From IMG/VR virus record IMGVR_UViG_3300028590_000045, positions 1 through 41,438 of that record: 41,438 bases of DNA; one strand, written 5' to 3'. Positions 1 through 36,565 of this stretch are shown here, piece by piece. This DNA is from a virus. Made by a program: the position numbers and the translations under genes. The notes beneath the pieces are model-generated. The model saw only the letters and a list, made by a program, of their open reading frames with translations. It was not told the origin of the DNA and ran no database searches. Every line of letters begins with the position of its first letter. Position 1 is the stretch's first letter.

Positions 1-539
1 GGCGTCGCCGCCGCCGGCGCCGTCGCCTCCGCCGCCTCCGCCTCCGCCGTCGCCGCCTCCGCCTCCGCCGTCGCCGCCTCCGCCGCCAAGATGCCGCGGC
101 CCGTTTCGAGAGCGGTGATGACGCCGTTGCATGCATCGACGACCTTCTGCCAGTAAGCGGGCTTCGGATCGGGCTGAACAGGTTCGGCGCTCGCAAGTGC
201 CTGCCTGATGCCGGCGATCATGAAACCGGTGCGAACGCGCTCCCACGCACCATCGTCAAGCGCATGCCAGCGACGTGCCCGAGAGATAAGCTCTCCGCTG
301 AACCACGGAACGTCGCTCTTGGCGATCCCGTCGTCGAGCGTTGGCACCAATTCGGCGAGCCACCGGGGCATGAGATCGGCCGGGCAGTTCGACGCCGAAT
401 TGATATCGGGACCGAACGCGGCAAGGGCGCAAACGAGTTCGCGACCGTCGACGTTCTTGCGCCACGAGCCTTGAATAATCCGGCCTTCAGCGTGCGCCTG
501 TTCGGCAAGTTCGATACGGGCGAGAGGTGTTAGCAGCAT
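1..539 (-). CDS. Ala-rich repeat phage protein, 5' part (gene crosses the contig ends)
   Basis: The ATG at 539-537 is preceded by ACGGAGAACACCG, the ribosome-site pattern used throughout this genome. The frame is open to base 1. Through the 126-bp end overlap it continues in the same frame at the right end and stops at 40975, giving about 286 residues in all. Residues 1 to about 150, encoded here, form a non-repetitive domain with Cys/Trp-containing segments such as VCALAAFGPD, CPADLMPRWLAEL and TLDDG. Similar N-terminal domains occur, from memory, in phage proteins of unknown function that carry Ala-rich repeats. After GRGILAAE the repeats begin. The gene follows the palindromic element at 576-589 and heads the leftward operon with the RuvC-like and DpdA genes. 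Function unknown. Confidence 0.75.
   Translation of the reverse strand, partial: MLLTPLARIELAEQAHAEGRIIQGSWRKNVDGRELVCALAAFGPDINSASNCPADLMPRWLAELVPTLDDGIAKSDVPWFSGELISRARRWHALDDGAWERVRTGFMIAGIRQALASAEPVQPDPKPAYWQKVVDACNGVITALETGRGILAAEAATAEAEAATAEAEAAEATAPAAAT
17..142. repeat. Left copy of 126-bp terminal overlap
   Basis: Bases 17-142 are identical to 41313-41438 by eye. Before base 17 the match to the corresponding right-hand bases continues with four mismatches in 16 bases (2, 13, 14, 16). The simplest reading is a circular or circularly permuted genome assembled with an end overlap, giving a unit of about 41,312 bp. A true short direct terminal repeat is the alternative. Most of the overlap lies in a low-complexity GCC/TCC/GTC tract, so the exact unit length is uncertain. 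Confidence 0.9.
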
Positions 540-575
540 CGGTGTTCTCCGTTCCAACAATGACGGAGACGAGCA

Positions 576-589
576 CTAACCTGTTATGC
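576..589 (-). promoter_or_regulatory. Palindromic element TAAC-CT-GTTA + TGC
   Basis: CTAACCTGTTATGC on the + strand, read as GCATAACAGGTTAG toward the gene. It ends 37 bases before the ATG at 539. Near-identical elements precede the genes starting at 36336, 30806 and 4239, and another lies at 3955-3968. The inverted TAAC/GTTA halves suggest a dimeric DNA-binding protein; CATAAC could also serve as a promoter -10 box. Role is inferred. Confidence 0.55.
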
Positions 590-663: not shown

Positions 664-1362
664 CTAGTCGAGTTCGCCAACCGCGACGGCGAGATCGCGA
701 TCCAGATCGGCCAGGAGTAGGAGGCGGTCGGCAATGTCGGCGCGGATCGTCGCCACCTGTTGAGGGGTGAGCTTTTCGGGCAGGCGGCCGGCGGCGTATG
801 CCTGCACCGTCGCGCGGCTCATGCCGAGCATGCCCGACGTCTCGCGATCCGTCGCGCCCGTAGCCTCCTTGAAGCGCCCGAGAAACGACGCGCCCGGATC
901 GGACGTCACGCCATGCCGGAGGCGGGGCGCTTCAGTACCGGGTAAAATTGGCGCTGCGGCCGCCGTGGGGGCCGTTTCGGGCTTCGGGGGTGCGACGGGT
1001 GCCGGAACGGCTTCAGGGGCCGTGGCGGGCGTCTCTGCCCGCCGTTGCGCCCCGCACGTCATGCAACGGCCGTTGCCCGCGATCGGCTGATCGCCGTTGC
1101 AAGGCGGGCCGTCCGCGTTCAGGCGGCACGGCTCTAGCCCCGTGGCCTGTTCGGCGATTGCCAGCCGTTCCCGCGCCAGCGCTTCGGCGAACTCCCCTGC
1201 TTCGGCAAGCTCGATCGCGAGGGCGACGTCTAGCGGATCGTCGCTAGGGGTGTTGAACCCGCCTAGCAGGCGCGCCGCTTCCTCTTCCTGCTCTTCGCGG
1301 CTCATAAGCCGGAACGTGGGATCGGCGGCCAGGGCGGCCCCTGCGGCTTCAGGCGTCATCAT
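664..1362 (-). CDS. Putative HTH regulator with Cys cluster
   Basis: 232 residues. The first ATG of an ATG-ATG pair (1362) is chosen; GAGGAACAGACCG lies just upstream. Residues 1-75 are acidic and helical. A Cys cluster follows (PCRLNADGPPC, then CMTCG), which could bind a metal. A Pro/Ala-rich linker leads to a C-terminal helix-turn-helix-like segment (TDRETSGMLGMSRATVQAYA). It overlaps the upstream 53-residue gene by 14 bases. As one of few candidate DNA-binding proteins here, it could read the palindromic elements, but that is inference. I do not recognise the whole protein. Confidence 0.65.
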   Translation of the reverse strand: MMTPEAAGAALAADPTFRLMSREEQEEEAARLLGGFNTPSDDPLDVALAIELAEAGEFAEALARERLAIAEQATGLEPCRLNADGPPCNGDQPIAGNGRCMTCGAQRRAETPATAPEAVPAPVAPPKPETAPTAAAAPILPGTEAPRLRHGVTSDPGASFLGRFKEATGATDRETSGMLGMSRATVQAYAAGRLPEKLTPQQVATIRADIADRLLLLADLDRDLAVAVGELD

Positions 1363-2194: not shown

Positions 2195-2563
2195 TCAGAT
2201 GACGTTGGCGAGCGTGAAGCCTGCGGCTTCAAGGCGCGACGTGTAGCGCGCGCCGTCGTCGCGGGTGCTGAAGGCGGAAAGCAATGCGGCCAGGGCTGCG
2301 CGCCCTTCGTCGTCGCGTTCGTTTGCCTTGTCGAGCCGCAGCTTTGCAACGGCCGCCTCAACCGCGGCGCTCGCCTTGTCATAGCCGTAACCGGTGGCGC
2401 GGCCGCTCGCCATCTCAACGCCCCACACCTGCACATAGGCCGTCGCGGCCGCGCCGAACTTGATAACGATCCGGCCGGCAACCTTGCCGTTGAGGATCAG
2501 CGCCGATGCGCTGAAGCTGTTGGTCGCCTTGTCGAACGCGGCGTAGATATCGGGCTTGCTCAT
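2195..2563 (-). CDS. Conserved phage hypothetical protein
   Basis: 122 residues; ATG at 2563 with GCAACGGAGATGAGACA upstream. Features include NSFSASALILNGKVAGRI near the N-terminus and MASGRATGYGYDKASAAV in the middle, a pattern I associate with small phage and prophage proteins of unknown role. No membrane segment or catalytic motif is visible. It lies in the leftward early block between two other small genes. Confidence 0.65.
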   Translation of the reverse strand: MSKPDIYAAFDKATNSFSASALILNGKVAGRIVIKFGAAATAYVQVWGVEMASGRATGYGYDKASAAVEAAVAKLRLDKANERDDEGRAALAALLSAFSTRDDGARYTSRLEAAGFTLANVI

Positions 2564-2659
2564 TGTCTCATCTCCGTTGCGGCTTCAGTGCCGATGCAAG
2601 GGCAATAGCAAAACTGCTACAGGGCTGTCAACGGCCGTGTAGCAAAAATGTTCAGCGCC

Positions 2660-3049
2660 TTAAAACAGCGATGCCGGATCAACCTCGTAGGGGTGGCGCT
2701 CGCCAAGCAGATAGAGCGTGTAGCGGTTGCGCGGGCCGCTTGGAAATCCAAGGGACCGCCGGGGCGAGGCTTTGCGGCATGACGGGCAACGGCGCATGAA
2801 GCCCTTGAAGTCCGCGCCGCTCACCTGCTCGAACAGCGCGGCGCACTGCCCGCATTCGCTCTGCCACGTCATGAGCGTGCCGGCGCTGCCGTCGCGGCGG
2901 GTGTGATCGTCAACGGCCAGGAGCTTGTGAACGGCAACTAGCACACGCTCGCGGCATCGGCCCGTATCGGCTTTGCGGTCTATTACGAGGCGCGACCCTA
3001 CCTCGACGGCTTCAGGGTCGAAGCGCAAATACGGCATGATCTCGGGCAT
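2660..3049 (-). CDS. Small zinc-ribbon-like protein ending in DPASLF
   Basis: 129 residues. The ATG at 3049 is preferred over 3085 because GAACGGAGAAACAGCC lies directly before it. A CGQC...CPSC pair (CGQCAALF, then RRCPSCRKA) suggests a four-Cys zinc site in the second half. The C-terminus is VDPASLF, the same end as the small terminase and nearly that of the DUF2815 protein, written with different codons. It is the first leftward gene after the divergent control region. Function unknown; nucleic-acid binding is plausible. Confidence 0.65.
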   Translation of the reverse strand: MPEIMPYLRFDPEAVEVGSRLVIDRKADTGRCRERVLVAVHKLLAVDDHTRRDGSAGTLMTWQSECGQCAALFEQVSGADFKGFMRRCPSCRKASPRRSLGFPSGPRNRYTLYLLGERHPYEVDPASLF

Positions 3050-3442
3050 GGCTGTTTCTCCGTTCAAGTTAAGCGCCCGTTTCATACAATGCCGATGCGC
3101 GGTTTCATAGTATATATTCCTTCCAGAGCCGGGGGGCTTACCACCACCCCGTCACGCTGTCGCGCGCCGTGCCGGTAATCCCGCGCGGGCGTTCTGGCAG
3201 TAGTAATCGGTAACGGGTGGTAAAACGTAAAATCACCATGCCAGATTGCTACGCGGCTTTGAGGTGTCGCGCTCCCGGCCTCCCGATCGTTCGACGTGGC
3301 CGCTGAAGGATCAATAGGTGCAAAAACCTAATCGCCTCAACGGGTTAGCGGCTTCAGCCCCCGTTTACGGTGTTATGTCCGTTTGACTTTGGCGGCGTTC
3401 AGGGACGTTCCTTATCGCCCATAGCAGCCATGAGCGCACGAA
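3050..3442. promoter_or_regulatory. Divergent intergenic control region (about 390 bp)
   Basis: This is the only long non-coding stretch, and leftward and rightward genes both start from it. Visible structure: two direct copies of GTTTCATA (3079-3086, 3102-3109) 23 bp apart next to the AT-rich TATATATT at about 3111-3118; a loose inverted repeat TTACCACC...(3138) / GGTGGTAA (3216); a TAGGT/ACCTA hairpin (3315-3330); AACGGG (3339-3344) paired with CCCGTT (3360-3365); and TTGACT at 3383. It likely holds divergent promoters and perhaps an origin. I could not define a convincing -10/-35 pair for either direction. Confidence 0.6.
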
Positions 3443-4201
3443 ATGTCGACCGAAAAGCCTGATAGCAGCCCTGCTAGCCTGTTCCGCACCGGATATCAGC
3501 CGGAACGCCACGCCAACCGCCGGCGCACCGGCAGTCGTGCCAAGCTCGCAAAGCGCTTCTTTGAAGACACCTACGCCGCATGGGAGGAACAGGGGGAAAG
3601 CGCCCTAGCCCGCGCCGCCTTCCACGATCCTATGGGCTTCGTCTCAATGGTGGCCCGCCTCATGCCGCAGAAGATCGAGGTTAGCACCCCTACGGATGGC
3701 ATGAGCGATGAGCGTCTAGCAGAAATGCTAGAGGTAGCGGAACGCATGGCGGCGATAAGGGCAGGCCAGGTGATCGACGCTACGCCGTTGCGTGTAGCAG
3801 CCCTGCCATTGGCGCACGAGCCCGCCGACGAAAACGCCCTCTGCACCGATGCGGCCGAAGAGGGGGGTGGGGGGCCGGATCGCGCGCACCTCCTTGGGGG
3901 AGTAAATACCTCATCCGCACTTCGGCCGCCGCGGGCCGATACACCCGTAGCAGAGCATAACGTGTTAAACGTAGCAGACGCGCCACGGGCAGACCTCGAT
4001 ACGATCAGAGAGCGCGTGAGGGCTCTCCCTCCCCTTAGCGGCCAAAAAGCTACAGAGGCCGAGACGTCAGTAGCAGAAACGCCATCGCTGCCGTATCCAG
4101 TGGGGCGGCCGTTCGCGAAGCCCGATCACGTCGTCGAGCGCGAGAACCGTCGCCGCATCGCCGAAGCTGAAGACGACATTGACCCGGCGAGCCTGTTCTA
4201 G
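3443..4201 (+). CDS. Terminase small subunit
   Basis: 252 residues. The N-terminal third (RTGYQPERHANRRRTGSRAKLAKRFFEDTY...HDPMGFVSMVARLMPQKIEV, about residues 15-83) resembles phage small terminases that bind DNA and recruit the large subunit. Position upstream of the large terminase supports this. The rest looks like a disordered linker with unusual DNA: repeated GTA-GCA codons, a G6TG6 run and a palindromic element. PASLF occurs at residues 10-14 and again as the C-terminal DPASLF. No good ribosome site precedes 3443. A ten-codon ORF starts at 3431 in another frame and could be a leader. Confidence 0.75.
   Translation: MSTEKPDSSPASLFRTGYQPERHANRRRTGSRAKLAKRFFEDTYAAWEEQGESALARAAFHDPMGFVSMVARLMPQKIEVSTPTDGMSDERLAEMLEVAERMAAIRAGQVIDATPLRVAALPLAHEPADENALCTDAAEEGGGGPDRAHLLGGVNTSSALRPPRADTPVAEHNVLNVADAPRADLDTIRERVRALPPLSGQKATEAETSVAETPSLPYPVGRPFAKPDHVVERENRRRIAEAEDDIDPASLF
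3955..3968 (+). promoter_or_regulatory. Palindromic element copy inside small terminase gene
   Basis: GCATAACGTGTTAA matches the GCATAAC-NN-GTTAG element in the rightward orientation. It lies within the linker-coding part of the small terminase gene, about 230 bp before the copy at 4201. It may be a second operator or a chance match; the GTA/GCA-rich context around it is itself unusual. Confidence 0.35.
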
Positions 4202-4214
4202 CATAACAAGCTAG
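4201..4214 (+). promoter_or_regulatory. Palindromic element / candidate promoter for terminase block
   Basis: GCATAACAAGCTAG begins on the last base of the small terminase stop codon and ends 25 bases before the ATG at 4239. TTGACC at 4179-4184 lies 17 bases before CATAAC, so a sigma70-type promoter with CATAAC as -10 is possible here. It matches the elements at 576, 30833 and 36369. Confidence 0.5.
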
Positions 4215-4238
4215 ACGCCGATCCTGCGGAGAACCGAC

Positions 4239-4394
4239 ATGCGTGCAGCCCTGGCCGTAGCGGCCGCCATCCTGATCCCCGCCGTGGTGATCCTGTTCTT
4301 CGCGTGGCTCGCGACCCGGCAGGGGTTGCCGTGCATCTGCGAAGACGCTGACGATTGCACCTGCGGCGGTGCGTGGGGCGGGAGGAAGCAGTGA
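4239..4394 (+). CDS. Tiny membrane protein with Cys-rich tail
   Basis: 51 residues. ATG at 4239 follows CTGCGGAGAACCGAC, the genome's usual ribosome-site pattern. An N-terminal hydrophobic span (ALAVAAAILIPAVVILFFAW) is followed by a short tail with four Cys (CICEDADDCTC) and a basic end. Its stop overlaps the GTG of the next small gene. Function unknown. Location just ahead of the large terminase and the candidate promoter suggests co-expression with packaging genes. Confidence 0.65.
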   Translation: MRAALAVAAAILIPAVVILFFAWLATRQGLPCICEDADDCTCGGAWGGRKQ

Positions 4395-4516
4395 GGGCCG
4401 AGCACTTCGTCATCCTTGGCGCGTTGATCTGCGTCGCCCCTGTCGTCTTCGGCCTGATCGTCGCGAAGTGGGATCGGGCGTGGAGCCGCGCGTCGCGACC
4501 GGGGAAGCTGCGTTGA
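4391..4516 (+). CDS. Tiny membrane protein
   Basis: 41 residues. The GTG at 4391 overlaps the upstream TGA (GTGA), and its own TGA overlaps the TTG chosen for the large terminase (TTGA), so it sits in a translationally coupled chain. It is almost entirely one hydrophobic span (FVILGALICVAPVVFGLIVA) followed by a basic WDRAWSRASRPGKLR tail. GGAGGAAGCA just before 4391 is a good ribosome site. Function unknown. Confidence 0.6.
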   Translation: MRAEHFVILGALICVAPVVFGLIVAKWDRAWSRASRPGKLR

Positions 4517-5997
4517 GCGAAGAGCAGATCACGGTTCCGGGCGCGCAGGCCACGGCCGAAGAGTGGGCGGTGTTCGAGGCGCGGCTGCGGAAGGAGCAGG
4601 AGCGCCGGATCGCCGTCAACCGGCTGGCGCACTACAAGCCCTATGCCAAGCAGCGCGAGTTCCACACCGCCGGATCGCTGCCGGTCTATGAGCGCCTGTT
4701 CATGGCGGGCAATCAGCTTGGCAAGACCTTCGCCGGCGCGGCCGAGACGTCGTTCCACCTCACCGGCCGCTACCCCGATTGGTGGCAGGGCCGCCGATGG
4801 GATCGGCCCATCACCGCGATCGGCGGATCGGAGAGCAGCGAACTCACCCGCGACGGCATGCAGCGCTTGCTCGTCGGGCCGCCCAAGATCGAGGCCGATT
4901 GGGGCACCGGCTATATCCCGAAGGATTGCGTGCTGGACTGGAGCCGGAAGAACGGCGTGGCCGACGCGCTCGACAGCGTAACGGTCAAGCACGTCAACGG
5001 CGGCGCGTCGACCTTCAGCTTCAAGTCCTACGATCAGGGTCGCGCGAAGTGGCAGGCCAACACCGTCGATTGGGTGTGGTTCGACGAAGAGCCGCCGCAG
5101 GACGTCTATTCGGAGGGCATCACCCGCACCACCGCAACCGGCGGGTCGTCGATCATGACGTTCACGCCGCTGCTTGGCATGAGCCAAGTCGTGCGCCGCT
5201 TCCTGTCCGAGAAGGACGAACACCGCCGCGTCACGACGATGACGATCAACGACGCCGAGCACATCAGCGCCGAAGAGCGCGAGCGCATCATCGCTCGCTA
5301 CCCTGAGCATGAACGCGAAGCCCGCGCGATGGGCGTGCCGATCTTGGGCTCGGGCGTCATCTTCCCGATCGCCGACAGCCGCATCCTCATCCCGCCGTTC
5401 AGCGTGCCGACGCACTGGCCGGGCATAAACGGGATCGACTTCGGGTGGGATCACCCGACAGCCGCGGCGCAGCTTCGGTGGGATCGCGATAACGACATCG
5501 TTTATCTCGTGCGCGAGCACCGGCTGTCGAAAGCAACACCTAAGCAGCATGTCGCGACGATCGGCGACGAACGCTCGTGGGGCAACTACCCGTGGGCGTA
5601 CCCCCACGACGGCGAGGTGTCCGACAAGGGCACCGGCGTCGCGCTCGCCAGGCAATATAAGACCGCAGGGCTCAACATGCTCGGCGAGCACGCCACCAAC
5701 GCGGACGGATCGAACAGCGTCGAAGCCGCGGTGCTCGACATGCTGGAGCGCATGAACGACGGCCGGTGGCGCGTCTTCGACGGGGTATGCCCGCTATGGA
5801 TGGAAGAGAAGCGGCTGTATCACCGCGACGAGGGCAAGATCGTCAAGGAATACGACGATCTGATCTCGGCTTCCCGCTACGCCATGATGATGCTACGACA
5901 TGCGCGGATCAACCGCGCAAGGTTCGACCGCTTCGGTTTCGACAGCCGCGGCGGCCCCGGCCGGATCGCGATAGGAACAGGCGAGGCGAACTGGTGA
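4513..5997 (+). CDS. Terminase large subunit
   Basis: 494 residues from the TTG at 4513; the longer frame from 4369 would cover the two tiny genes. The ATPase has Walker A GNQLGKT (residues 66-72) and Walker B VDWVWFDEEPP. The C-terminal nuclease shows GIDFGWDHP and a later PHDG with acidic residues, the RNase H-like metal site of phage terminases. It pumps DNA into the prohead through the portal and cuts concatemers. The family fits T7-like and related podovirus terminases. Confidence 0.93.
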   Translation: MSEEQITVPGAQATAEEWAVFEARLRKEQERRIAVNRLAHYKPYAKQREFHTAGSLPVYERLFMAGNQLGKTFAGAAETSFHLTGRYPDWWQGRRWDRPITAIGGSESSELTRDGMQRLLVGPPKIEADWGTGYIPKDCVLDWSRKNGVADALDSVTVKHVNGGASTFSFKSYDQGRAKWQANTVDWVWFDEEPPQDVYSEGITRTTATGGSSIMTFTPLLGMSQVVRRFLSEKDEHRRVTTMTINDAEHISAEERERIIARYPEHEREARAMGVPILGSGVIFPIADSRILIPPFSVPTHWPGINGIDFGWDHPTAAAQLRWDRDNDIVYLVREHRLSKATPKQHVATIGDERSWGNYPWAYPHDGEVSDKGTGVALARQYKTAGLNMLGEHATNADGSNSVEAAVLDMLERMNDGRWRVFDGVCPLWMEEKRLYHRDEGKIVKEYDDLISASRYAMMMLRHARINRARFDRFGFDSRGGPGRIAIGTGEANW

Positions 5998-16415: not shown

Positions 16416-19273
16416 TGGCGCAACTTCCGACAATTGTTTCTACGGCGAACCGCCGCATTCTCCCTACGGCCGACCTCAAGGTCGATGGTGTCACGCCGGC
16501 GGCGTTCGGCGCAGGTATCGGCGCGGGGCTCCAGCAAATAGGCGAGGCGGGTCAGCAGACCGGTGCGGCGATGCAGGCGCTCGTGCTCGCCAAACAGCAG
16601 GAGGAAGATCGGCTCGCGGAGTTCGATCGACAGACGCAGTTCGTTAGCTTTGGTTCCGATCAGTCGACGAAGCTGACGGAGGCGTCGCGCGATCTATCCG
16701 GCCCGGCGCAGGATTTCACGAAGTCGCGCATGGAGGGCTTCGACGCCGATGCGGCGCAGTTCTTGGAGAAGGTGCCCGAGCGCTTCCGGCCGGCGTGGCA
16801 GGCGCGTATGGCGCAGCTTCGCGCCGGTGTTGCCGGCGAAGCGTTGCGGACAGAGTTCACGCAGCGCGACAGCTACTACAAGACGACAATCGGCGACACG
16901 CTCGGCAAGCTGCTGAACGGGGCTATGTCATCGCCAGACAAGCTCGACGATTGGCGCGCTCAGGGCGAAGAGATCATCAACACGTCGGGTCTGTCTGCGC
17001 AGGACAAACTTGAGTACGCGACCCGGTGGAAGGGCCAGATCGGCGTGGCCGCCGCGCAGGGCGATCTTCAGCGCGATCCTGAAGGAGCGATGGCTCGGCT
17101 CGGCGGCATAGACTTTATTGTCGAGACGAAAGACGGGTATGCCGGCAGCGGTGCGAGCTACACGAAGGGCGGGCAAGCGTCGCTGAAAGGCGATATCATC
17201 AACTTCTTCGTCGGCAAAGGTGTGCCGCAATCTGTTGCGCGAGGCATCGCCGCCGGTATCGAGAGCGAGAGCTCCGGCAATCACCGTGCCGTCAACGACA
17301 GCAGCGGCGCATACGGGCTCGGCCAGTGGCTAGGGCCGCGCAAGGAAGCGCTGTTCGCGCGCTACGGCAGCAACCCGACGCGAGAGCAGCAGTTGGAGTT
17401 CCTGTATTCGGAACTGAAGGGCGGCGATCGAGGCGGCCCCGCGGTGCTGGCCGCCAAGGACGAAGGGCAGGCGGTCGATCGGTATATCCGCGGCTTCATG
17501 CGTCCCGGCAAGGACACTGAGACTGGCGTCAAGCGCGGTATGCGTGCGCTCGGCTACAAGGTGCAAGAAGCGAAGCGCGAGCCCGATTACGGTTCGCAAA
17601 CTGCCGGCGGAATGATCGCGCCCGGTAACATCGATCTGGCGAACCGCAAGGCCGTGAACAACGCCGACGGTAGCATATCGACTGAACAATCCTTCTCGAT
17701 TGGAACAGATAAGGGCGAGGTGCTGATCCCTCGTGTGGTGAACGGAAAGGTTATCTCGGAAGCGCAGGCTATTGCGCATTTTCGTCGCACCGGTGAAAAT
17801 CTCGGCACGTTCCGCACGCCTGAAGATGCAGATCGTTACGCCGAGCAGCTTCATCAACGGCAAGAAGCTCGCTATAGCAAGAGCGGCAACGGCCCTGACG
17901 TATCGACCCGACTTGTTGGCAACGGCCAGGTGGACCCGCGCTATGCCGATATTCCGATCGACGCGCGCGTCCAGTTGATCGGCGCGGCCGAGCGGGAGAT
18001 TGCCGGGCGCGAGCGCGAAGTGAAGATTGCCGAAGCCGAAGTGCATGATAAATGGGTGAACCAATTCATGCTTGATCTCAGCGACGGCAAGGCTGGCCCG
18101 GAGGATATAGAGGCCGCGCGCAAGTCGGGCAGGCTTACCGACTTCGACGAGATCAATCGTGCGCAGAGCATCGTCGAAGCGCGGCAGAAGGCGAACATCG
18201 ATATCGACACGTTCAACGCCTTGTCGGCGACGCCCGGCTTTGCATGGAACCCTTACGACGATCGTCAGCGTAAGGCCGTCGACGCCGCGGTCACTGCGCA
18301 GGGCGGTACGCCGCAGGCCGCCTTCAATGTGTGGCAGAAGACCGGCATTCTTGGCAAAGCAGGCGGAGTAGCGCTGCGCGGCGCGATGATCTCCACCGAT
18401 CCGAATACCGTCAGTGCCGGCGCATCGATTGCTTCGAATATGCTGGCACGTAACCCGAACGCCTTCGCGGGCGTGGAAGGCGGCGAAGAGATCGAGCGTA
18501 ACGCGCTGCTCTACGGGCATTACGTCAACGATCTTGGCTATTCGCCGGGCGATGCCGCGAAGCGCGTGGCCGAGCAGAACACGCCGGAGATGCGCCGAAA
18601 AATCCAGATGGGCCAGCCGGAAGTCGCGGCGTTCCGCAAGACGGTGCAGCGCACCGACGTTCAGGGCATGCTCGGCAAGGCGCTCGACACGACATGGTTC
18701 GACGGCAGGCCGACGTTCCTTGGGCCGGAACAGCGGCAGGCGGCCGGCCAGGACTATGCCGATCTCGCCGCCGATCATTTCCAGCGCTACGGCGATGCCA
18801 ACGCGGCGCAGTCCTATGCGTCCGCGCAGATGCGCCGGCTCTATGGCGTCGTGAATGGGCGGCTGATGAAGTATCCGCCGACGCGCGCTTATCCGGTTAT
18901 CGGCGGATCGCAGAGCTATATTTTCGAGCAGGCGGCCGCCGATATCAAGAAGGTGACGGGGCGCACCGTAGACCCGAGCAAGGTATATTTGATGCCGATC
19001 CCCACGGCGACTGCCGAAGCTTTCCGCGCCGGCAAGGCACCGCCGTACGAGGTGCATTACGTCGATAAAGTGAACGGCCAGAACGTTTATCGTGTGCTGA
19101 ATGGGCAGGCGTTCTACGCCGATCCGCGTGTCGCTGCGCGCGCCGCGGGACAGGCAAACAAGGTTCGGCTGGAGAAAGAACGGCAGGATTATCTCGCTCG
19201 CGAGCAGTTCGAACGTGACGCCACTGTTGCACGCTTCGGCTATCTGCCGGGCGTGAATGCGCCTGGGAAGTAG
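16415..19273 (+). CDS. Internal virion protein C with lysozyme domain (T7 gp15 position)
   Basis: 952 residues. After a helical N-terminal region, about residues 250-390 match the phage tail lysozyme pattern: IINFFVGKGVPQSVARGIAAGIESES, then SGAYGLGQWLGPRKEAL. Next is GNIDLANRKAVNNADGSIST...GEVLIPRVVNGKVIS..AI.HFRRTGENLGTF, a module I know from other T7-like core proteins. The remainder is long and helical. It probably breaks peptidoglycan and forms part of the ejection channel. In T7 itself the murein-cleaving domain is in gp16, so the activity is placed one gene earlier here. Confidence 0.8.
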   Translation: MAQLPTIVSTANRRILPTADLKVDGVTPAAFGAGIGAGLQQIGEAGQQTGAAMQALVLAKQQEEDRLAEFDRQTQFVSFGSDQSTKLTEASRDLSGPAQDFTKSRMEGFDADAAQFLEKVPERFRPAWQARMAQLRAGVAGEALRTEFTQRDSYYKTTIGDTLGKLLNGAMSSPDKLDDWRAQGEEIINTSGLSAQDKLEYATRWKGQIGVAAAQGDLQRDPEGAMARLGGIDFIVETKDGYAGSGASYTKGGQASLKGDIINFFVGKGVPQSVARGIAAGIESESSGNHRAVNDSSGAYGLGQWLGPRKEALFARYGSNPTREQQLEFLYSELKGGDRGGPAVLAAKDEGQAVDRYIRGFMRPGKDTETGVKRGMRALGYKVQEAKREPDYGSQTAGGMIAPGNIDLANRKAVNNADGSISTEQSFSIGTDKGEVLIPRVVNGKVISEAQAIAHFRRTGENLGTFRTPEDADRYAEQLHQRQEARYSKSGNGPDVSTRLVGNGQVDPRYADIPIDARVQLIGAAEREIAGREREVKIAEAEVHDKWVNQFMLDLSDGKAGPEDIEAARKSGRLTDFDEINRAQSIVEARQKANIDIDTFNALSATPGFAWNPYDDRQRKAVDAAVTAQGGTPQAAFNVWQKTGILGKAGGVALRGAMISTDPNTVSAGASIASNMLARNPNAFAGVEGGEEIERNALLYGHYVNDLGYSPGDAAKRVAEQNTPEMRRKIQMGQPEVAAFRKTVQRTDVQGMLGKALDTTWFDGRPTFLGPEQRQAAGQDYADLAADHFQRYGDANAAQSYASAQMRRLYGVVNGRLMKYPPTRAYPVIGGSQSYIFEQAAADIKKVTGRTVDPSKVYLMPIPTATAEAFRAGKAPPYEVHYVDKVNGQNVYRVLNGQAFYADPRVAARAAGQANKVRLEKERQDYLAREQFERDATVARFGYLPGVNAPGK

Positions 19274-19275
19274 CA

Positions 19276-22200
19276 ATGGCTCTCCGTCCTATCTCTTCGG
19301 TGCTCCCTGCGCTGACGTTGCCGATTGGGATGAACCCTATCCCCGAAGAGGAAGAAGCGCGCAGCGGCCCGGCGCCCGGCATCCTCGAAACGATCGGTGC
19401 AGCGTTCCGCACGGAGAACACCGTGGGCTCGTGGCTAACCCGCGAGATCAACGGCTTCGGGATCGATAACAGCGTCGACGAGCGCTACAGCGCTTGGGAT
19501 GATATCAAGGGCACGCCTTACGAAGATTACTGGGATAGCTTCGCTTCGTCGAACAATTCACGCTACACCGCCTTCCTGAAGACGCAGATAGACCGCGAGA
19601 ACGACGACCGCCGCACCCTGGCCGCCGCGGGATGGGGTGGCACGATCGCCGGCATGACGGCCGGCATCATCGATCCAACGCTGCTGATCCCTGTCGGGGG
19701 CGAAGTGGCGCTTGCCGGAAAGGCAACATGGCGCCTCGGTCGTGGTGCGTTGGCGGGCGCTCGGGCAGGCGGCGTCGGCGTCGCAATCCAAGAGGGGCTG
19801 CTTCAGTCGACGCAGGAGACGCGCACGGCCGAAGAGAGCGCCCTTGCGATCGGCGGCGGCATCGTTCTCGGTGGCATTCTCGGCGGCGGTGCGGCGGCGC
19901 TGCTGTCCCGCCCGGAACAGCTTGCCGCACAAAGCGCTCTCGAAAACATCCATACGATGCCGCGTCCCGGTAGTGCCGGCGCGGCGGCCGTCGAGCGCGC
20001 AACGCTCGAAGACCTTACCGTGGCGGGCGCGGCGGCGCGCAACGTCGCCGCGGCGACGCGGCAGATTAGCCCGAACCTGCGCGCTAACTTTCGGGCGTCG
20101 CCGGCGGCACGCCAGTTCAGCCAGGAGCTTGCGGAGAACACCGTGTATCAGGCGATGCACGGTGAGGGCCGCACGCTCGGTGCGGCCGTCGAGACGGAGA
20201 TGCGATCTGTCTTCCATGCACGTCTTGCGGATGGTGTGCAGGCTGGCGAAGACATCTTCCGCGAGATGAAGAAGAGCGGCCTCAACATGAGCCGTATGGA
20301 GTTTGAGGAAGCTGTCGGCCGAGCAATGCGTCGCGGTGACGAGGGCGAGAGCGATTTCGTGAGCCGTGCCGCGAAGGCTTGGCGCGAGCGCGTATTCGAG
20401 CCCTTCAAGAACGAAGCGATAGACATGGGGCTGCTGCCGTCAGACGTCAGCGTCTCAACGGCGGACAGCTACTTCAGCCGCGTGTGGAACAAGGAGATGC
20501 TGACGGCGCAGGAGCCGGCCTTCAAGGAGAAGGTCGCAGCATACTATTCGGGCCGGATCGCCGACGACTATCAGCAGAGCGTCGTGCAATTCCGCGACGG
20601 CAACTCGGCGCTCGATCAGGAAATCGCCGATCTGCGTATGACGCCGGAAGACCGCGGCCGCGTGCTCGGCGAACTGGAAAGCCAAGGCGCAGCGCTCGAC
20701 GCCGCCAACGCCGACGCGATCGAGCAGGTGTCGCGCATCAATGAGCTGCGGCAGGCGGCCAAGGAGGCACGTGACAGCGGCGACGTGCGCGCCGAGCGTG
20801 CGGCTCGTGACGAGATCACGCGCATTCAGGCCGCCGGCGGGGATCGTTTGAAGGGCTATCTGAAGGAGCGCGGCAAGCTGCGTTCGCGCCAGCGCAAGGT
20901 CGACATGAATTACGCTGGCATGGCGGATCGCGCCGACGCCATTCAGGCGTCGCTCGACAACATCCAGCAGGCGAATATCCGAGGCGTGCAGCGGCTCGTT
21001 ACGCGCGGTCGCACGTTGGAACGCGAGGCGCAGAGACTTGATCCCGACAAGCTGCGACAGAAGATCAGCGATCTCCGCACCAACTTTTACGCCCTCGTCG
21101 TCCGTTCGGAGAAGGCGGCCGAGCGCACGAGCAGCGCACTTGCCAAGCTCGAAGGCGCACCGGCCGATCAGGTTGCGCGGCTGAAGAAGGCAGCAGCCGC
21201 CGAAGCCGCGCGCACGGAACGCCTGAACTCGATCAGCCGCCGGCTCGAAGCGGCCGAAGCGCTCGACCCGTACGCCAGCTTGGCCGAAGTGCGAGCCTCG
21301 ATTGACGATATGGTGCGCGAGGTGGCGGAAGTGTCGATGGCGCGAGGCGAGAAGGTGCAGCGGCTTCAGGAGCGCTTGGCCCGGCTCGACCCGAAGAAAA
21401 TAGATCAGCGCATCGCCGATATCGAGAAGTTGAAAGTCGAGCGCGAGCGCGCGTTCTACGATCGTTGGGAGATCGGCCGTCTCGGTGAGGGTGTCGATCC
21501 GCATGCACCGGACGTCGCGCCGAAGTTTGACGCGGCCGCCAAGGATATAGCTGACGAGGTGTTCGACAAGCTGACGGGCCGTGCGGCCACGTCGTCGGCA
21601 TCGACACTGCCGGAGTATCTTACGCCAATCACCCGCGGCCCTATGAAGGACCGGACCTTCAACATTCCAGACGAGCTTGTCGAAGAATACCTGCATAGCG
21701 GCGTGCGTGACGTCGGCGAGCGCTACGGCCGCACGATGGCCGCGGAGATCGAGCTTACCCGCCGGTTCGGTCGCGCCGATATGCGCGACCAAATTCAGAC
21801 GATCCGTGACGAGTATCGCACGCTGCGCGAGCAGCCAAATCTCACCGAAGCGGATCGTGCGGCGCTGGCGAAGGACGAAAAGGGTGCGATCACCGATCTC
21901 GAAGCGATGCGCGATCTTGTGCGCGGCACCTATAAGGCCGCAGAGAACGCGACGAATTGGGGCCGCACCGTGCGCGGGCTTATGGCTTTCAACTATATAC
22001 GCACAATGGGCGGCGCCGTCATTGCGAATATCGCCGAGATTTACCGGCCGGCCATGGTGCACGGGCTAGGTCGCTATATGACGCAGGGCATAGCGCCGTT
22101 GCTGACGAACGCCGCTGCGATCAAGTTGTCCGTCAAGGAAGCGAAGCTTGCCGGGCAGGTGACGGAGCGCGTGCTGCAATCGCGCATGATGAGCCTCGGC

Positions 22201-23223
22201 GAGATCGGCGACCCCTACCGAAGCGGCACCGCTGTCGAGCGCTGGCTGACGAACGGATCGCGGATCGGCTCGAAGTGGAACGGGCTCGTCTACTGGACCG
22301 ATGGGATGAAAGCGATCTCGTCGGTGCTGTCGCAGAACCGTATCGTCGAGGCGGCGATCAGCGGCAAGGATCAGCGGTTGCTCGCCTATCTCGGCATCGA
22401 CGGCGGAATGGCCGAGCGTATCGCCCGTCAGTTCGCTGAGCACGGCGAAGACCTAGAAGGCGTGAAGGTCGCGAACACGCAATCGTGGACCGACCCCAAC
22501 GCCGTGCGCGCCTATCGCTCGGCGGTGTCGAAGGACGTCGATAGCATCATCGTGACGAAAAGCGTCGGCGACGTGCCGCTGTTCGCCAACACCCCCACGG
22601 GGCGGTTGATCCTCCAGTTCCGCAACTACACCTTCGCGGCCCATCAGCGGATCACGCTGCGCGCCATGCAGGAAGATAAGGCGCAGATGCTCTCCGGCAT
22701 GCTCGGCATGGCGGCGCTCGGCATGCTCGGCGCAACACTACGTTCGTGGCGCGGCGGCGCGGATCGTGTCGAGAAATTCAAGGAAAGCGCGAGCAACCCC
22801 GGCTTCCTGATCGGCGAAGGGCTCGATCTGTCGGGCATGTTCGCCCTGCCTATCGAGTTGAGCAACACGATCGAGAAGCTGACGCAGCCCGCCGGCTTCA
22901 GCTTCAACCCCGTCAAGACGCCGCTGCTGGCCGCAGGCACGCTCGTCAATCCCGACGCTTCGATGCAGGGGCAGAGCACGCGCTTCTCGTCACGCGATCC
23001 GCTCGGCGCGGTGCTCGGCCCCACAGCAGGCTTGCCGGCCACGGTGGCCAAGGCGGCGGGCGCTCCGGCGAATTATCTGACCGGCGGCGAAGTGTCAGGG
23101 AGCCAAGGCAACGCGGCCGCCAGCCTCATTCCTTTCGGCTCTTACCTCGGAATGCGAGAAGCGCTACAAGTGTTCGCTGGAGACAGCCCCTACGTCGAGA
23201 CAGGATCACCCGATGGCCGTTGA
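19276..23223 (+). CDS. Internal virion protein D (T7 gp16-like)
   Basis: 1315 residues, almost the length of T7 gp16 (1318). Gly/Ala-rich hydrophobic segments near residues 115-215 (GWGGTIAGMTAGIIDPTLLI; AIGGGIVLGGILGGGAAALL) could insert into membrane during ejection. Residues about 430-730 are strongly charged and coiled-coil-like. The C-terminal third has more hydrophobic segments and FRNYTFAAHQRITLRAM. No lysozyme motif is seen at its N-terminus. It overlaps the tail fibre gene by 11 bases. Confidence 0.8.
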   Translation: MALRPISSVLPALTLPIGMNPIPEEEEARSGPAPGILETIGAAFRTENTVGSWLTREINGFGIDNSVDERYSAWDDIKGTPYEDYWDSFASSNNSRYTAFLKTQIDRENDDRRTLAAAGWGGTIAGMTAGIIDPTLLIPVGGEVALAGKATWRLGRGALAGARAGGVGVAIQEGLLQSTQETRTAEESALAIGGGIVLGGILGGGAAALLSRPEQLAAQSALENIHTMPRPGSAGAAAVERATLEDLTVAGAAARNVAAATRQISPNLRANFRASPAARQFSQELAENTVYQAMHGEGRTLGAAVETEMRSVFHARLADGVQAGEDIFREMKKSGLNMSRMEFEEAVGRAMRRGDEGESDFVSRAAKAWRERVFEPFKNEAIDMGLLPSDVSVSTADSYFSRVWNKEMLTAQEPAFKEKVAAYYSGRIADDYQQSVVQFRDGNSALDQEIADLRMTPEDRGRVLGELESQGAALDAANADAIEQVSRINELRQAAKEARDSGDVRAERAARDEITRIQAAGGDRLKGYLKERGKLRSRQRKVDMNYAGMADRADAIQASLDNIQQANIRGVQRLVTRGRTLEREAQRLDPDKLRQKISDLRTNFYALVVRSEKAAERTSSALAKLEGAPADQVARLKKAAAAEAARTERLNSISRRLEAAEALDPYASLAEVRASIDDMVREVAEVSMARGEKVQRLQERLARLDPKKIDQRIADIEKLKVERERAFYDRWEIGRLGEGVDPHAPDVAPKFDAAAKDIADEVFDKLTGRAATSSASTLPEYLTPITRGPMKDRTFNIPDELVEEYLHSGVRDVGERYGRTMAAEIELTRRFGRADMRDQIQTIRDEYRTLREQPNLTEADRAALAKDEKGAITDLEAMRDLVRGTYKAAENATNWGRTVRGLMAFNYIRTMGGAVIANIAEIYRPAMVHGLGRYMTQGIAPLLTNAAAIKLSVKEAKLAGQVTERVLQSRMMSLGEIGDPYRSGTAVERWLTNGSRIGSKWNGLVYWTDGMKAISSVLSQNRIVEAAISGKDQRLLAYLGIDGGMAERIARQFAEHGEDLEGVKVANTQSWTDPNAVRAYRSAVSKDVDSIIVTKSVGDVPLFANTPTGRLILQFRNYTFAAHQRITLRAMQEDKAQMLSGMLGMAALGMLGATLRSWRGGADRVEKFKESASNPGFLIGEGLDLSGMFALPIELSNTIEKLTQPAGFSFNPVKTPLLAAGTLVNPDASMQGQSTRFSSRDPLGAVLGPTAGLPATVAKAAGAPANYLTGGEVSGSQGNAAASLIPFGSYLGMREALQVFAGDSPYVETGSPDGR

Positions 23224-27784: not shown

Positions 27785-28207
27785 ATGGAAGATCGCCTGA
27801 CACGACACCCCGGATCGGCTGACGAGCTTCAGCTTCAAATCCTAGGGCAAATCCGCGATAACCTGTCGGCGATAAATCGCAAACAGGACACGATCGACGG
27901 CAAGCTCGACGACGTGAATATCCGTGTCGTCCGTCTCGAAGAGCGCGACGAACGGCTGGAGCGGGCCGAGAAGGCGATCGATAAGATGAGCGGCAAGCTC
28001 GACGTCCTGATGCGCGACAAGGATGAACGCGCCGGGGCCGGGCGGGTGTTCGTCGGCATCCGCGGATGGACGCCGATCATCATTGCGCTCGTGTCGGCGT
28101 TCGCTTCTATTGCAACGGCGCTCTACCTTTCCGGCCGGGCCGCCGGCGTTGTTCCTGCGCCGCCCGGTTATATCGCGCCTCAACCGAAAGACGGCAGCGC
28201 CACATAG
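27785..28207 (+). CDS. Coiled-coil protein with one membrane span
   Basis: 140 residues from the ATG at 27785 (AGAGG six bases upstream); the longer frame runs antisense to the zinc-finger gene. A coiled-coil stretch (LQLQILGQIRDNLSAINRKQDTIDGKLDDVNIRVVRLEERDERLERAEK-like, about residues 17-75) precedes a span WTPIIIALVSAFASIATALYL and a short Pro-rich tail. The plan resembles small XhlA-like or tail-associated membrane proteins near lysis genes. Its last 28 bases overlap the convergent PrimPol gene. Confidence 0.6.
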   Translation: MEDRLTRHPGSADELQLQILGQIRDNLSAINRKQDTIDGKLDDVNIRVVRLEERDERLERAEKAIDKMSGKLDVLMRDKDERAGAGRVFVGIRGWTPIIIALVSAFASIATALYLSGRAAGVVPAPPGYIAPQPKDGSAT

Positions 28208-30075
28208 CGGCGGCCGCCGAACGGAATCATCGTTACCGCGCCGCTCTCGACCGCAAAGGCGAGCACCTGATCCCACTTGCGCTTGAAGTTCGACACATCC
28301 TTCGAGCCGTCGTAGCGATCCTTGAAGACGTTCTTGGCGATCTCGATATCGACGCAGGTGCGGCCCTCGATCTCTTCAGGCTCTTCGACAAGCGCCCATT
28401 CGATGCTCTGCACCAATAGCTCGACGTGCTTCGGTATCTTCGTGAGATCGCGCTGCGACGGCGGCGCGTCGGACACATAGCAGGAGGTGACGGTGCGGCC
28501 GCGGCTGTCGCGGCCGAGTTCCTTCGGGATCAGCGTGAAGACGCCGAGCGAACGCTGCTGAGCGTCGCGAGCTTTCGTGACGCTCAGCTCACGAATGCTG
28601 TTTGTCTTCTCGCGAGTGATCTCGATAACTACGTCGACGTCATTGAAGATCGCACCCGCTCCCCGCTGGCCTTTGCCGTCTTTCGGGGGGTGATGCGTGA
28701 CGAACACGAAGGCGTTCAGCATCTCCGACAGCTTAGACAGCGCCTTCATGGCAATGCCTGCCTCGCTGTTGTCGTTCTCGTCGCGCAAGAGGCCGGAGGC
28801 CGAGAGCGTATCGATCGCGACCATGCGGACCGGGACGTCAAACCTTGCCTCCATCGCGGCCATCTGCTGCTTCAGGTCTTCGGCCAGGGCTTCGAGCGCG
28901 CCTGCCGCGGCGAGGTTGTTGATATCGCCGGCGACGATCGGGAGGCGATCCGCCTCGCCGAGCGCCTCCATACGGTTGAGCACCGATCGGCGGCCTTCGC
29001 CGGTCAGGATTATTGAGCCGCCACGGTCGTCGGGTTCTATCCCGAAGAACCCCTTGCCCGTCGCCAGCGAGCGAGCAAGGTGCATCAGCACGAAGGTCTT
29101 GCCTCCCTGCGACGGACCGGAAAGCACGCCGACGCCGGTTTGCGGCAGCAATTCGTAGAACAGCCACGTCGCATCGAAGTTGATCGCGTCGCCATGTGCC
29201 TGCCAGCGTCGATCTACGGGCGCTGGAGCGGCGTAACGCGCTTCGGGCATCTCACCTACCCCGGCGAAGTCAACGGCCGGTGACTGCCCTCCTGCGGCCG
29301 ACAGGGCGTATAGGAAGGCGTTGTCGACCTTCTGCCGTAGTTCCTCCAAATTCCACGGCGGCGAGCAGCGGTCGTTCCAGCGCTCGGCCATCAAGTCAAA
29401 TGCCGTCTCGGCCGACAGCCCCATGTCCTTGACGATGCAGGCGACACGGAACGTCAGATCGTCGCCGCCCATGCCTTCGACGGCAAGCGGCGCTTCGGTT
29501 TCGAGATACTTCGTGGCGCGGGCCAACGCGAACTCCGTGTCGAGTTCCGTCGCGGCTGCTGCGCCGCTGCGCTCGCGAGGCTCGTCGAGCCGGGCGATCA
29601 GCGTCGACGGGGCGACGGCCATCGGCGCGTCGTTGTCCACCTCGTAGGTGCCTTCGGGGACTATAGAGCCCGGCGCAATGACGTAGCCATGCGCACTTCG
29701 GATATCCAAGCCATCGCCGATCTTGCCGGCGGACAGGCTCTTCGACGGGCCTGCCAGATAGGCGTGGCGGCCGCCAGTTGGTGTGCGCACCATCAGCGTA
29801 TCGAGCGGAAGATCAAGAGCCATGTAGGACGCCATACCGTCCTTGCCCTTCTTCATATCTATATCAACGACAATCATGTCGTCGGTCGCGACACCGATGT
29901 TGTGATCGAGCGGCCAGCCGGTGACGGGATCACTCCACATGGCGGCGACGGCAGCGACGTCCGCGGTCGCGACGTCGTAGAACGCCTTGACGCGCGGCTC
30001 CTTCGCGCCGGGGATGCACGGGAAGACCCTAAATCCGCGAGCGGCCCATGCCAGTGCGTGATCGCGCATGTTCAT
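28180..30075 (-). CDS. PrimPol-helicase (bifunctional primase-polymerase fused to AAA ATPase)
   Basis: 631 residues. The N-terminal about 165 residues match the PrimPol family: FRVFPCIPGAKEP, catalytic DID (71-73) and GGRHAYL (His 104). After a linker containing DFAGV (269-273) comes a RepA/AAA-like ATPase: Walker A GPSQGGKT (320-327), Walker B MVAIDTLSAS (about 418-427), and a His-rich sensor FVFVTHHPPKDGKGQRGAG. It would prime and unwind phage DNA. ATG at 30075 shares its A with the upstream HNH stop (TAATG). It is the last gene of the leftward block. Confidence 0.88.
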   Translation of the reverse strand: MNMRDHALAWAARGFRVFPCIPGAKEPRVKAFYDVATADVAAVAAMWSDPVTGWPLDHNIGVATDDMIVVDIDMKKGKDGMASYMALDLPLDTLMVRTPTGGRHAYLAGPSKSLSAGKIGDGLDIRSAHGYVIAPGSIVPEGTYEVDNDAPMAVAPSTLIARLDEPRERSGAAAATELDTEFALARATKYLETEAPLAVEGMGGDDLTFRVACIVKDMGLSAETAFDLMAERWNDRCSPPWNLEELRQKVDNAFLYALSAAGGQSPAVDFAGVGEMPEARYAAPAPVDRRWQAHGDAINFDATWLFYELLPQTGVGVLSGPSQGGKTFVLMHLARSLATGKGFFGIEPDDRGGSIILTGEGRRSVLNRMEALGEADRLPIVAGDINNLAAAGALEALAEDLKQQMAAMEARFDVPVRMVAIDTLSASGLLRDENDNSEAGIAMKALSKLSEMLNAFVFVTHHPPKDGKGQRGAGAIFNDVDVVIEITREKTNSIRELSVTKARDAQQRSLGVFTLIPKELGRDSRGRTVTSCYVSDAPPSQRDLTKIPKHVELLVQSIEWALVEEPEEIEGRTCVDIEIAKNVFKDRYDGSKDVSNFKRKWDQVLAFAVESGAVTMIPFGGRRYVALPSFG

Positions 30076-30539: not shown

Positions 30540-30548
30540 GACGACCGC

Positions 30549-30806
30549 CTACAGCGCGCAGAGGCAATAGGTGCCCTTCAGCCGGCCGGGCTTGACCGCC
30601 TTGCGGTGTTCGCGCAGACGGCGGTTCAGCTTCGTGATGTAGGGGCCGAGATACTGCTGCGCCTCGCGCAGCGGCTTGCCCTCGCGCGGATCGACGATCG
30701 ACGTGTAGATTTCGAGGATATCGACGTCGCCCTTCCCGTCGAGGAACCGATACAGTTCGCCGAGTTTAGGGGGCAATTCGAGGGTCTTCGGTGCTGCGGA
30801 CGCCAT
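30549..30806 (-). CDS. Small winged-helix-like protein
   Basis: 85 residues; ATG at 30806 after AAACGGAGAAGCAC. LGELYRFLDGKGDVDILEIYTSIV, then YITKLNRRLREHRKAVKPGRLKGTYCL resembles a recognition helix plus beta-hairpin wing of winged helix domains (compare the GRGYRL ending of OmpR-type domains). It follows the palindromic element at 30833-30846. It may regulate late-block transcription or act in replication; both are inference. Confidence 0.6.
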   Translation of the reverse strand: MASAAPKTLELPPKLGELYRFLDGKGDVDILEIYTSIVDPREGKPLREAQQYLGPYITKLNRRLREHRKAVKPGRLKGTYCLCAL

Positions 30807-30832
30807 GTGCTTCTCCGTTTAGGCGTGTAGGT

Positions 30833-30846
30833 GTAACTTGTTATGC
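30833..30846 (-). promoter_or_regulatory. Palindromic element upstream of winged-helix/PrimPol block
   Basis: Read toward the gene this is GCATAACAAGTTAC, ending 27 bases before the ATG at 30806. It lies in the 52-base gap after the polymerase stop and has the same halves, spacing and orientation as the copies at 576, 36369 and 4201. Likely an operator or promoter part. Confidence 0.55.
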
Positions 30847-30858
30847 GGCGTCGCGCAA

Positions 30859-35536: not shown

Positions 35537-35559
35537 CGCCTGCTCTCCGTTGTGTGAGG

Positions 35560-36336
35560 TTACGCCGCGGTCTTGGCGGCGACGAGGGCGTCGAGCGTGC
35601 GGCGCAGGATGCCCGGATCGTCCTTCGCCTTCTCGACGACGGACGGCGAGCCCGACGTGAGGCTCTTGCACCCCGTCGCCTGCTCCAGCGTCGCCATCGC
35701 GAACGATGCCGACTTGGCCTTCAGGAGATCGGCCATCGCGTCCTTCAACTGCTGCACCGTCACCTCGCCGGCGTTCTGCGCGGCCTGCACTTCGGGGCTC
35801 GTGGCGGCCGGAGTGGCCGCGACGGTTTCAGCGGAAGCAGGCGATGCCCCCGCCTGCGATGCGGTGGCATCCGCGCCGGCGGCCGGGCTGGCGAAAGGGT
35901 CGACGGCGGCCGCCTGATTGGGCGGGATGCTCTCGGCAGGCGGGGCGTCCGTTCCGCCCGGCGTGGGCTGCGGCGTCGGCTCGGGAGTTGGGGCGATCGG
36001 CGTGCCATCGGGGTTCTGCGTCGGCGCAGCGGCGATAGCGGCCTCGATCGCCGAGATGGCACCGGTGCGCTTCTTGCCGGCCTGCTCTTCGGCGAGCATG
36101 CGATCCAGCGTGGCGCGATCGGCGCTGGCCGCTGCGGTCTTGACGTCCGCGACACTCATCGCACCGACGCCGGTGTCGCTCGAAGCGGCAGGCTGCGCGG
36201 CGGGAGCAGGAGAAGGAGCCGGCGCGGCCGCGACGGTCGCGGCGGCAATGGCGGTCGACGATGCGCCGGTGAAGCGGGCGAGAAGTTGATCGAACTCCTG
36301 CACGCTGTCGGCGCTGATACGCAAATCAATAGGCAT
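35560..36336 (-). CDS. Ala/Pro-rich protein of the replication block
   Basis: 258 residues from the ATG at 36336 (CACCGGAGATCACCGCT upstream). Starts MPIDLRISADSVQEFDQLLARF, a short ordered part, then a long Ala/Pro-rich disordered region that includes AAVDPFASPAAG, then a helical C-terminal part (VQQLKDAMADLLKAKSASFAMATLEQATGCKSL). No enzyme motif. It heads the DUF2800/DUF2815/polymerase block behind a palindromic element, so it may be a replication accessory or loader. Function unknown. Confidence 0.6.
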   Translation of the reverse strand: MPIDLRISADSVQEFDQLLARFTGASSTAIAAATVAAAPAPSPAPAAQPAASSDTGVGAMSVADVKTAAASADRATLDRMLAEEQAGKKRTGAISAIEAAIAAAPTQNPDGTPIAPTPEPTPQPTPGGTDAPPAESIPPNQAAAVDPFASPAAGADATASQAGASPASAETVAATPAATSPEVQAAQNAGEVTVQQLKDAMADLLKAKSASFAMATLEQATGCKSLTSGSPSVVEKAKDDPGILRRTLDALVAAKTAA

Positions 36337-36368
36337 AGCGGTGATCTCCGGTGTTGAGAGTGGAACGA

Positions 36369-36382
36369 CTAACAGGTTATGC
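36369..36382 (-). promoter_or_regulatory. Palindromic element upstream of replication block
   Basis: CTAACAGGTTATGC on the + strand; toward the gene GCATAACCTGTTAG. It overlaps the stop codon of the 62-residue gene and ends 33 bases before the ATG at 36336. TTGACG lies six bases upstream of CATAAC, too close for a normal -35. Likely an operator or promoter part shared with the other copies. Confidence 0.55.
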
Positions 36383-36565
36383 GCCGCCGTCAAGCGCCTT
36401 TCGCGCGCGGTGCCAAGCATCGTGCGAAAACTCTCCAGAGCCAAGCTCTTGTGCGCCGTCACGCACGATCCAGCGCTCGAAGGTGCGGCTCCACGAACAG
36501 CGCGCGTTCGACCGCTTCAGGAGCACCACGCCCTTGTTAGAAGATGGCGCGGGCCGCTTACTCAT
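36377..36565 (-). CDS. Small basic hypothetical protein
   Basis: 62 residues from the ATG at 36565, overlapping the HNH gene end by eight bases. Basic start (MSKRPAPSSNKGVVLLKRSN), then RTFERWIVRDGAQELGSGEFSHDAWHRARKALDGG, which reads as a folded small domain. The longer frame from 36781 is a shadow of the HNH gene. No family recognised. Confidence 0.5.
   Translation of the reverse strand: MSKRPAPSSNKGVVLLKRSNARCSWSRTFERWIVRDGAQELGSGEFSHDAWHRARKALDGGA

Follow-up and report, generated by a model that had tools for sequence, protein, structure and literature searches.

The window, that is the whole 41,438-nucleotide stretch of viral DNA analyzed here (IMG/VR record IMGVR_UViG_3300028590_000045), carries the palindrome TAACNNGTTA at sites that are non-random, orthologous among related phages, oriented along transcription and located downstream of TTGAC-like elements. 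We propose that a dimeric repressor, most likely encoded by the phage, uses TAACNNGTTA as its operator at sigma70-type promoters and so times transcription units, with the product of gene 664-1362 as the regulator; the chances that this reading is right seem to us about even. That a protein binds these sites and represses from them is what we infer from the sequences.

Distribution and conservation of the palindrome

The window contains four exact copies of TAACNNGTTA, against a mean of 0.08 and a maximum of 2 in 100 dinucleotide shuffles. When all 4+4 gapped palindromes with a spacer of 0–10 were surveyed (2816 tests), no other had a Poisson p in the window as low as that of TAACNNGTTA (3.3e-7), which ranked in the top three of the same census in each of three other close phages. 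The initial annotation had listed five copies of a longer, 14-bp element. Four of them are exact and non-random at the core, while the one at 4201-4214 is imperfect (TAACAAGCTA at 4204-4213) and the full 14-mer is not enriched: with three mismatches allowed, it occurs 18 times vs 14.2 times by chance, so that the signal resides in the TAAC-NN-GTTA core. The centres of the two half-sites in this core are separated by 6 bp. The GCA said to flank every copy on its upstream side is indeed there, since GCA precedes TAAC in 5/5 window copies when these are followed in the sense of the downstream gene. In a set of 32 sites drawn from related, non-independent sequences, the GCA bases are found at frequencies of 27/32 (G), 22/32 (C) and 20/32 (A), column −1 comprising 20 A, 9 T and 3 C; the invariance of the core columns in this set is partly a product of collecting the sites by that very pattern. 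As for the distance of 25–37 bases to a start codon, it was found for sites A, B, C and E (Table 1), and the copy at 3958-3967 precedes no start codon.

Table 1. Palindrome sites and associated genes in the window
Feature	Position	Strand	Sequence	Exact TAACNNGTTA copy	Upstream TTG element	Description
Site A	36369..36382	(-)	GCATAACCTGTTAG	36370-36379	TTGACG, 36393-36388 (-), 8 bp from TAAC	33 nt before gene preceding exonuclease
Site B	30833..30846	(-)	GCATAACAAGTTAC	30834-30843	TTGCGC, 30858-30853 (-)	27 nt before wHTH gene
Site C	576..589	(-)	GCATAACAGGTTAG	577-586	TTGCCA, 601-596 (-)	37 nt before gene 539->1 heading RuvC/DpdA operon
Site D	3955..3967	(+)	GCATAACGTGTTA	3958-3967		within small-terminase gene, in frame His-Asn-Val-Leu
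Site E (imperfect)	4201..4213	(+)	GCATAACAAGCTA		TTGACC, 4179-4184	overlaps terS stop; 25 nt before 51-aa ORF preceding terL
Favored candidate regulator gene	664..1362	(-)				232 aa; N-terminal helical region, disordered linker
Rival candidate regulator gene	30549..30806	(-)				85-aa PhoB/OmpR-like winged helix (wHTH), polA-PrimPol interval
Gene after site A	35560..36336	(-)				function not assigned
Small-terminase-like gene with site D	3443..4201	(+)				terS by position and alignment

A search with the polymerase yielded 11 contigs, to which G012 was added later. TAACNNGTTA is present in four of these 11 records (G001, G002, G003 and G008), while the reversed control pattern gave one copy each in G004 and G005 and none in G001, G002, G003 and G008. 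G002 and G012 were counted as one phage because they come from the same metagenome and hold complementary halves of the window gene set; window gene 19276-23223, in particular, is split between them (residues 1-742 and 744-1315). Altogether, the window, G001, G003 and G002+G012 contain 16 exact copies, all of which lie at four orthologous places: (i) place A, before the exonuclease operon; (ii) place B, before the wHTH/PrimPol genes; (iii) place C, between the HTH gene and the RuvC/DpdA operon that comes next; (iv) place D, inside terS. No further exact copy was found beyond these places in the window, G001, G003, G002 and G012. The imperfect site E is common to the window and G012.

Site A is retained between phages whose polymerases are only about 45–50% identical. 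The place A element is found in 9/9 first-batch contigs spanning the region, a count that leaves out G006 and G007, the contigs of which end short, and G009, where the exonuclease match was not found. Five of the nine copies are exact (window, G001, G002, G003 and G008) and four have one mismatch, namely TAACTTGTTC in G004 and G005 and AAACAAGTTA in G010 and G011. Later contigs were gathered by HTH and by exonuclease similarity. Among 80 exonuclease loci scanned (6 from known phages and 74 new), five of the new ones display xAACNNGTTx together with TTGAC at a spacer of 16–18; they correspond to four distinct sequences (G014/G015, G016, G017 and G018), L072 and L073 having identical sequence and L070 being the same contig as L066. 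No candidate site was found in 68/74 new loci, and the candidate in L088, which has no TTGAC, was put down to chance. L066/G018 has AAACATGTTT instead, a symmetric double change affecting both half-sites, which fell outside the one-mismatch criterion and was spotted by eye afterwards. TAACTTGTTC is also kept before the HTH gene of G019 (L063), within the one-mismatch criterion, and a second copy lies downstream of the HTH gene in G014 and G017, as does site C. Occurrence of the motif before genes in relatives, on which the initial annotation had staked its proposal, is thus borne out by the orthologous sites of the close phages and by site A in the later contigs. The chance-level count of the 14-mer with mismatches speaks for the view that the sites are a product of chance or of ordinary, AT-rich promoter DNA. 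Against it stand the 16/16 copies at orthologous places in four phages and the recurrence of site A in later contigs, which make this view scarcely credible.

The invariant second half-site, the two unconstrained bases at the centre and the variant that preserves the symmetry together suggest that a protein binding the palindrome would do so as a dimer. A dimeric regulator at the starts of expression units, as put forward initially, is well supported by orthologous conservation and by the TTGAC elements described below, the binder itself remaining putative. The sites lead the exonuclease, wHTH/PrimPol and RuvC/DpdA units; the link with DpdA is incidental, since G001 and G003 both retain site C and neither gave a DpdA match.

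Site D lies inside a coding gene, and its frame is common to 4/4 terS homologues, where it encodes His/Tyr-Asn-x-Leu as CAT/TAT-AAC-NNG-TTA. Its Leu codon, TTA, is rare (5/858 Leu codons in 29 window genes). That this codon is kept despite its rarity points to a constraint on site D at the DNA level, visible inside terS, though a constraint on the short motif in the protein may also play a part. The terS-like gene had no match in Pfam or PHROG. The location of sites D and E, in and just past terS, and the lack of a TTGAC-like element at site D in 4/4 cases fit the idea that the sites have their role not in transcription but in DNA transactions, such as replication or recognition by TerS for packaging. 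We consider this very unlikely, as the distance to the start codon is 19–37 nt for the A, B, C and H sites, which also have −35-like elements.

Other repeated elements were noted in the course of this survey. The GAACT-8-AGTTC palindrome was dismissed, as its copies fall within coding sequence and do not mark the starts of genes, and so was TAGCA-N4-TGCTA as an alternative element, which clusters near terS (window 2606, 3463 and 3717). TAGCA itself is clustered at the early region and terS (window 2500-4200, with 16/37 window copies in the 2-3 kb bins), and also in G012 (3000-4750), and may represent another binding site or else a signal for packaging. The divergent early region (window 3086-3442) has no palindrome. 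In G003, a tRNA-like gene recognized by eye (L032, about 18876-19090, anticodon read TTG) follows terS and is bordered by two copies of ATTGACCCCGCCTCGCTTTTCTGATGTTATGCC.

Predicted promoter context and register of the sites

Among the non-terS sites, 20 out of 28 have a TTGAC 8–26 bp upstream, as do 2.4% of positions taken at random; it is found at 0/4 terS sites. The corresponding value for positions before GGAG..ATG, a set which includes the sites themselves, is 9.4%. At place A, TTGAC or TTGAT is found at 17–18 bp in eight of the nine first-batch contigs, more specifically 17 bp before TAAC in G001, G002, G003, G004, G005 and G008 (TTGAT in G008) and 18 bp from TTGAC to AAAC in G010 and G011. 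At site A of the window, where the spacing is 8 bp, the 17-bp −35 spacing is lost. For sites B and C of the close phages, TTG stands 9–10 bp before TAAC in 7/8 cases, the miss being site C of G003, vs a background of 4.2%. The spacings fall into classes of 8–10 bp (B, C and window A), 16–19 bp (A, E and the C site of G014) and 23–26 bp (the C site of G017 and the sites before HTH genes). In the 8–10 class, the TTG element is 16–18 bp from the right-hand TA of GTTA; because TAACNNGT spans 8 bp, either half could supply the TA of a −10 element. TAACNN agrees with TATAAT, the −10 consensus, at only 3/6 positions.

The closest named phage, judged by the polymerase (38% identity), is Rhizobium phage RHph_N65, and an alphaproteobacterial host is plausible from the sequences. 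Alphaproteobacterial −10 elements often have no T at −7 (PMC8407463), and the Caulobacter RpoD consensus is TTGaCgS / GCtANAWC (PMC8144410). Site A, with TTGAC about 17 bp before TAACNN, resembles such sigma70 promoters; in contrast, RNA polymerase accounts neither for the GTTA half nor for a register that shifts, and the host class invoked in this comparison is a conjecture.

Since the register shifts by many base pairs and the palindrome is nevertheless always on or near the predicted promoter, we favor a repressor operator over a fixed element or an activator site, an argument limited by how weakly the −35 and −10 elements are assigned for sites of the B and C class. Accommodating the sites as a phage promoter element or activator box would require that a phage factor and host RNA polymerase read GCATAACNNGTTA and turn on middle and late units. 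This would follow the usual logic of a lytic cascade, with an early DNA-binding protein and middle/late units downstream, and the upstream GCA, which makes the site directional, also speaks for it. However, the register to TTGAC varies from 8 to 26 bp, unlike that of a fixed promoter element or activator contact, and an invariant second half-site, GTTA, is unexpected for a sigma element, so that we rate this explanation as quite improbable. The initial suggestion of an unusual promoter class is likewise weakened, as the distance between the palindrome and TTGAC is not fixed. GCATAAC as a fixed −10 element was dropped on account of the variable −35 spacing, and an RNA hairpin was dropped by reasoning, TAAC-NN-GTTA giving an A-U stem of at most 3 bp with a 4-nt loop.

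Candidate regulators and proposed mode of action

Of the two proteins initially nominated as regulators, the product of 664-1362 is favored because a palindrome copy adjoins its gene in 9/12 HTH-bearing contigs; that of 30549-30806 fares less well, being present also where no copy precedes its gene. More specifically, the copy follows the HTH gene in the window, G001, G003, G012, G014 and G017 and precedes it in G004, G008 and G019. In G006, G010 and G011, the HTH family is present and no copy was found beside the gene. The C-terminus of the 664-1362 protein is predicted, with a confident C-terminal model, to consist of an XRE-like HTH and a long helix, and four Cys residues of the protein are invariant across four close homologues. 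Foldseek matches of the HTH to ClgR, HigA and C.BclI are weak (probability 0.85–0.98, E at least 0.16). Pfam scores lie under the curated cut-offs for PF13560 (18.1 bits, cut-off 27) and PF20432 (16.6, cut-off 25.8; 25.3 for the G008 homologue), and the match to PF01381 is weak. Relatives of the C-terminal domain are found in G008, G004, G011, G006 and G010, and later in G014, G017 and G019. Scanning genome contigs for a host with the HTH alignment gave 478 pattern stretches and no relative; with the helicase alignment, two loci were recovered, one in a Bacteriovoracaceae MAG and one in a Verrucomicrobia MAG, both remote (33% and 28% identity). In G012, an HNH-like gene (685-1071, 35% identical to window 30075-30539) is found between the HTH gene and site C, and identity with the window picks up again at CCTTGCCATGTCTGGCATAAC.

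The XRE-like HTH protein is thus, as we infer, most likely the regulator. It resembles Cro/CI-type repressors in its predicted XRE-like HTH and in having a site beside or before its own gene. It differs from them by an HTH that is C-terminal, after a long disordered linker, by its weak matches and by the short half-site spacing; the half-sites of XRE dimers are usually more than 6 bp apart.

The operator might instead be bound by the 85-aa PhoB/OmpR-like winged-helix protein. Site B precedes its gene in 4/4 close phages, and the family (132 alignment columns, 11 aligned sequences) is as widespread as the HTH. The model of the protein (pLDDT 88.7), which had no Pfam match, resembles the DNA-binding domains of SaeR, PhoB and PhoP, with a best E of 0.012 (SaeR, Foldseek probability 1.00, TM 0.65), and AdcR, a binder of the same core discussed below, is also a winged-helix protein, not an XRE protein. 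Yet in distant relatives the gene comes directly after polA with no site before it, and OmpR-type domains usually bind direct repeats, which leads us to regard this protein as an unlikely binder. In the window (28180-33036) and at loci L005-L012, L014 and L015, polA, the small winged-helix gene and the PrimPol-like gene occur in succession, an order that most relatives share even where no site precedes the wHTH gene.

The core is known from AdcR, a MarR-family zinc repressor of streptococci, the box of which, TTAACNNGTTAA, contains an identical TAACNNGTTA; the dimer represses from several registers around promoters (PMC11580457). In contrast, the outer T/A of TTAACNNGTTAA is not kept in the phage sites, whose outer bases are not palindromic and which are made directional by a one-sided GCA, and AdcR governs a cellular zinc regulon of Firmicutes; membership of the AdcR regulon is not claimed here. 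The palindrome could nonetheless be the operator of a host regulator, for example of the MarR type, exploited by the phages, given that the same core serves a family of repressors in cells. We find this distinctly unlikely, as the core is kept although the phages diverge widely (polymerases down to about 45% identity) and a copy lies beside the phage HTH gene in most HTH-bearing contigs. No Pfam match to the MarR family was found among the window proteins scanned, which represent part of the ORFs. In the literature searched, mostly outside subscription journals, TAACNNGTTA was met in one paper, on AdcR, and in none dealing with phages.

Returning to the phage-encoded repressor, we envision that its dimer would sit on or beside the sigma70-type core promoters from which the units for replication, recombination and packaging are transcribed, and would time or shut down these units in a lytic-looking phage family. 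The 664-1362 protein would be made early, from the leftward operon. In the sister lineages G004/G019 and G008, the site before the HTH gene itself would allow Cro-like negative autoregulation. Profiles of tyrosine integrases and serine resolvases had no match in 10/10 records, and a lysogeny switch is therefore less likely than lytic-cycle timing.

Comparison with stoperators and genome context

The L5-type repressor sites of temperate mycobacteriophages are asymmetric 13-mers bound by a monomer of a single repressor, and block elongation (PMC9283540). Like these stoperators, the sites described here are present in several copies genome-wide, in promoters and elsewhere, with an orientation that tracks transcription. 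Unlike them, they have a palindromic core and number only 4–5 copies per genome, features which do not fit an L5-type asymmetric many-copy site, and an integrase was not found. One may go further and picture one dimeric repressor with 4–5 operators per genome as a genome-wide timer, in lytic phages devoid of an integrase, site D being a roadblock to elongation or an auxiliary operator and the set a lytic counterpart of the L5 stoperators, a view that we deem unlikely; site D may then act between packaging and replication expression.

What is new here is a phage operator set with an uncharacterized candidate regulator, operator sets as such being already known. A metagenomic phage without annotation thereby becomes a testable regulon, which comprises five sites and two proteins as candidates and makes clear predictions. 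In addition, TTGAC-N16..18-(T)AACNNGTT at the exonuclease operon provides a marker for a scattered phage family.

Several other features of the genomes were noted. The window had no match in the phage collection by megablast, and neither Rfam (gathering threshold) nor a tRNA scan returned anything. The ends of the window (1-540 and 40975-41438) share a low-complexity repeat with AEAATAEA-type coding; the record therefore probably breaks there, the genome being circular or permuted, and gene 539->1 would probably continue at 41438->40975. The string GGTGGTAAGCCCCCGGCT..TGGAA..AATATATRC, kept in the window, G001 and G012, is located just before the leftward operon. Finally, CGGATAGGAGATCCG occurs six times just before start codons in G008 (34465-36441; L036 14465-16441), where it can form a 5-bp stem with the Shine-Dalgarno sequence AGGAG in the loop.
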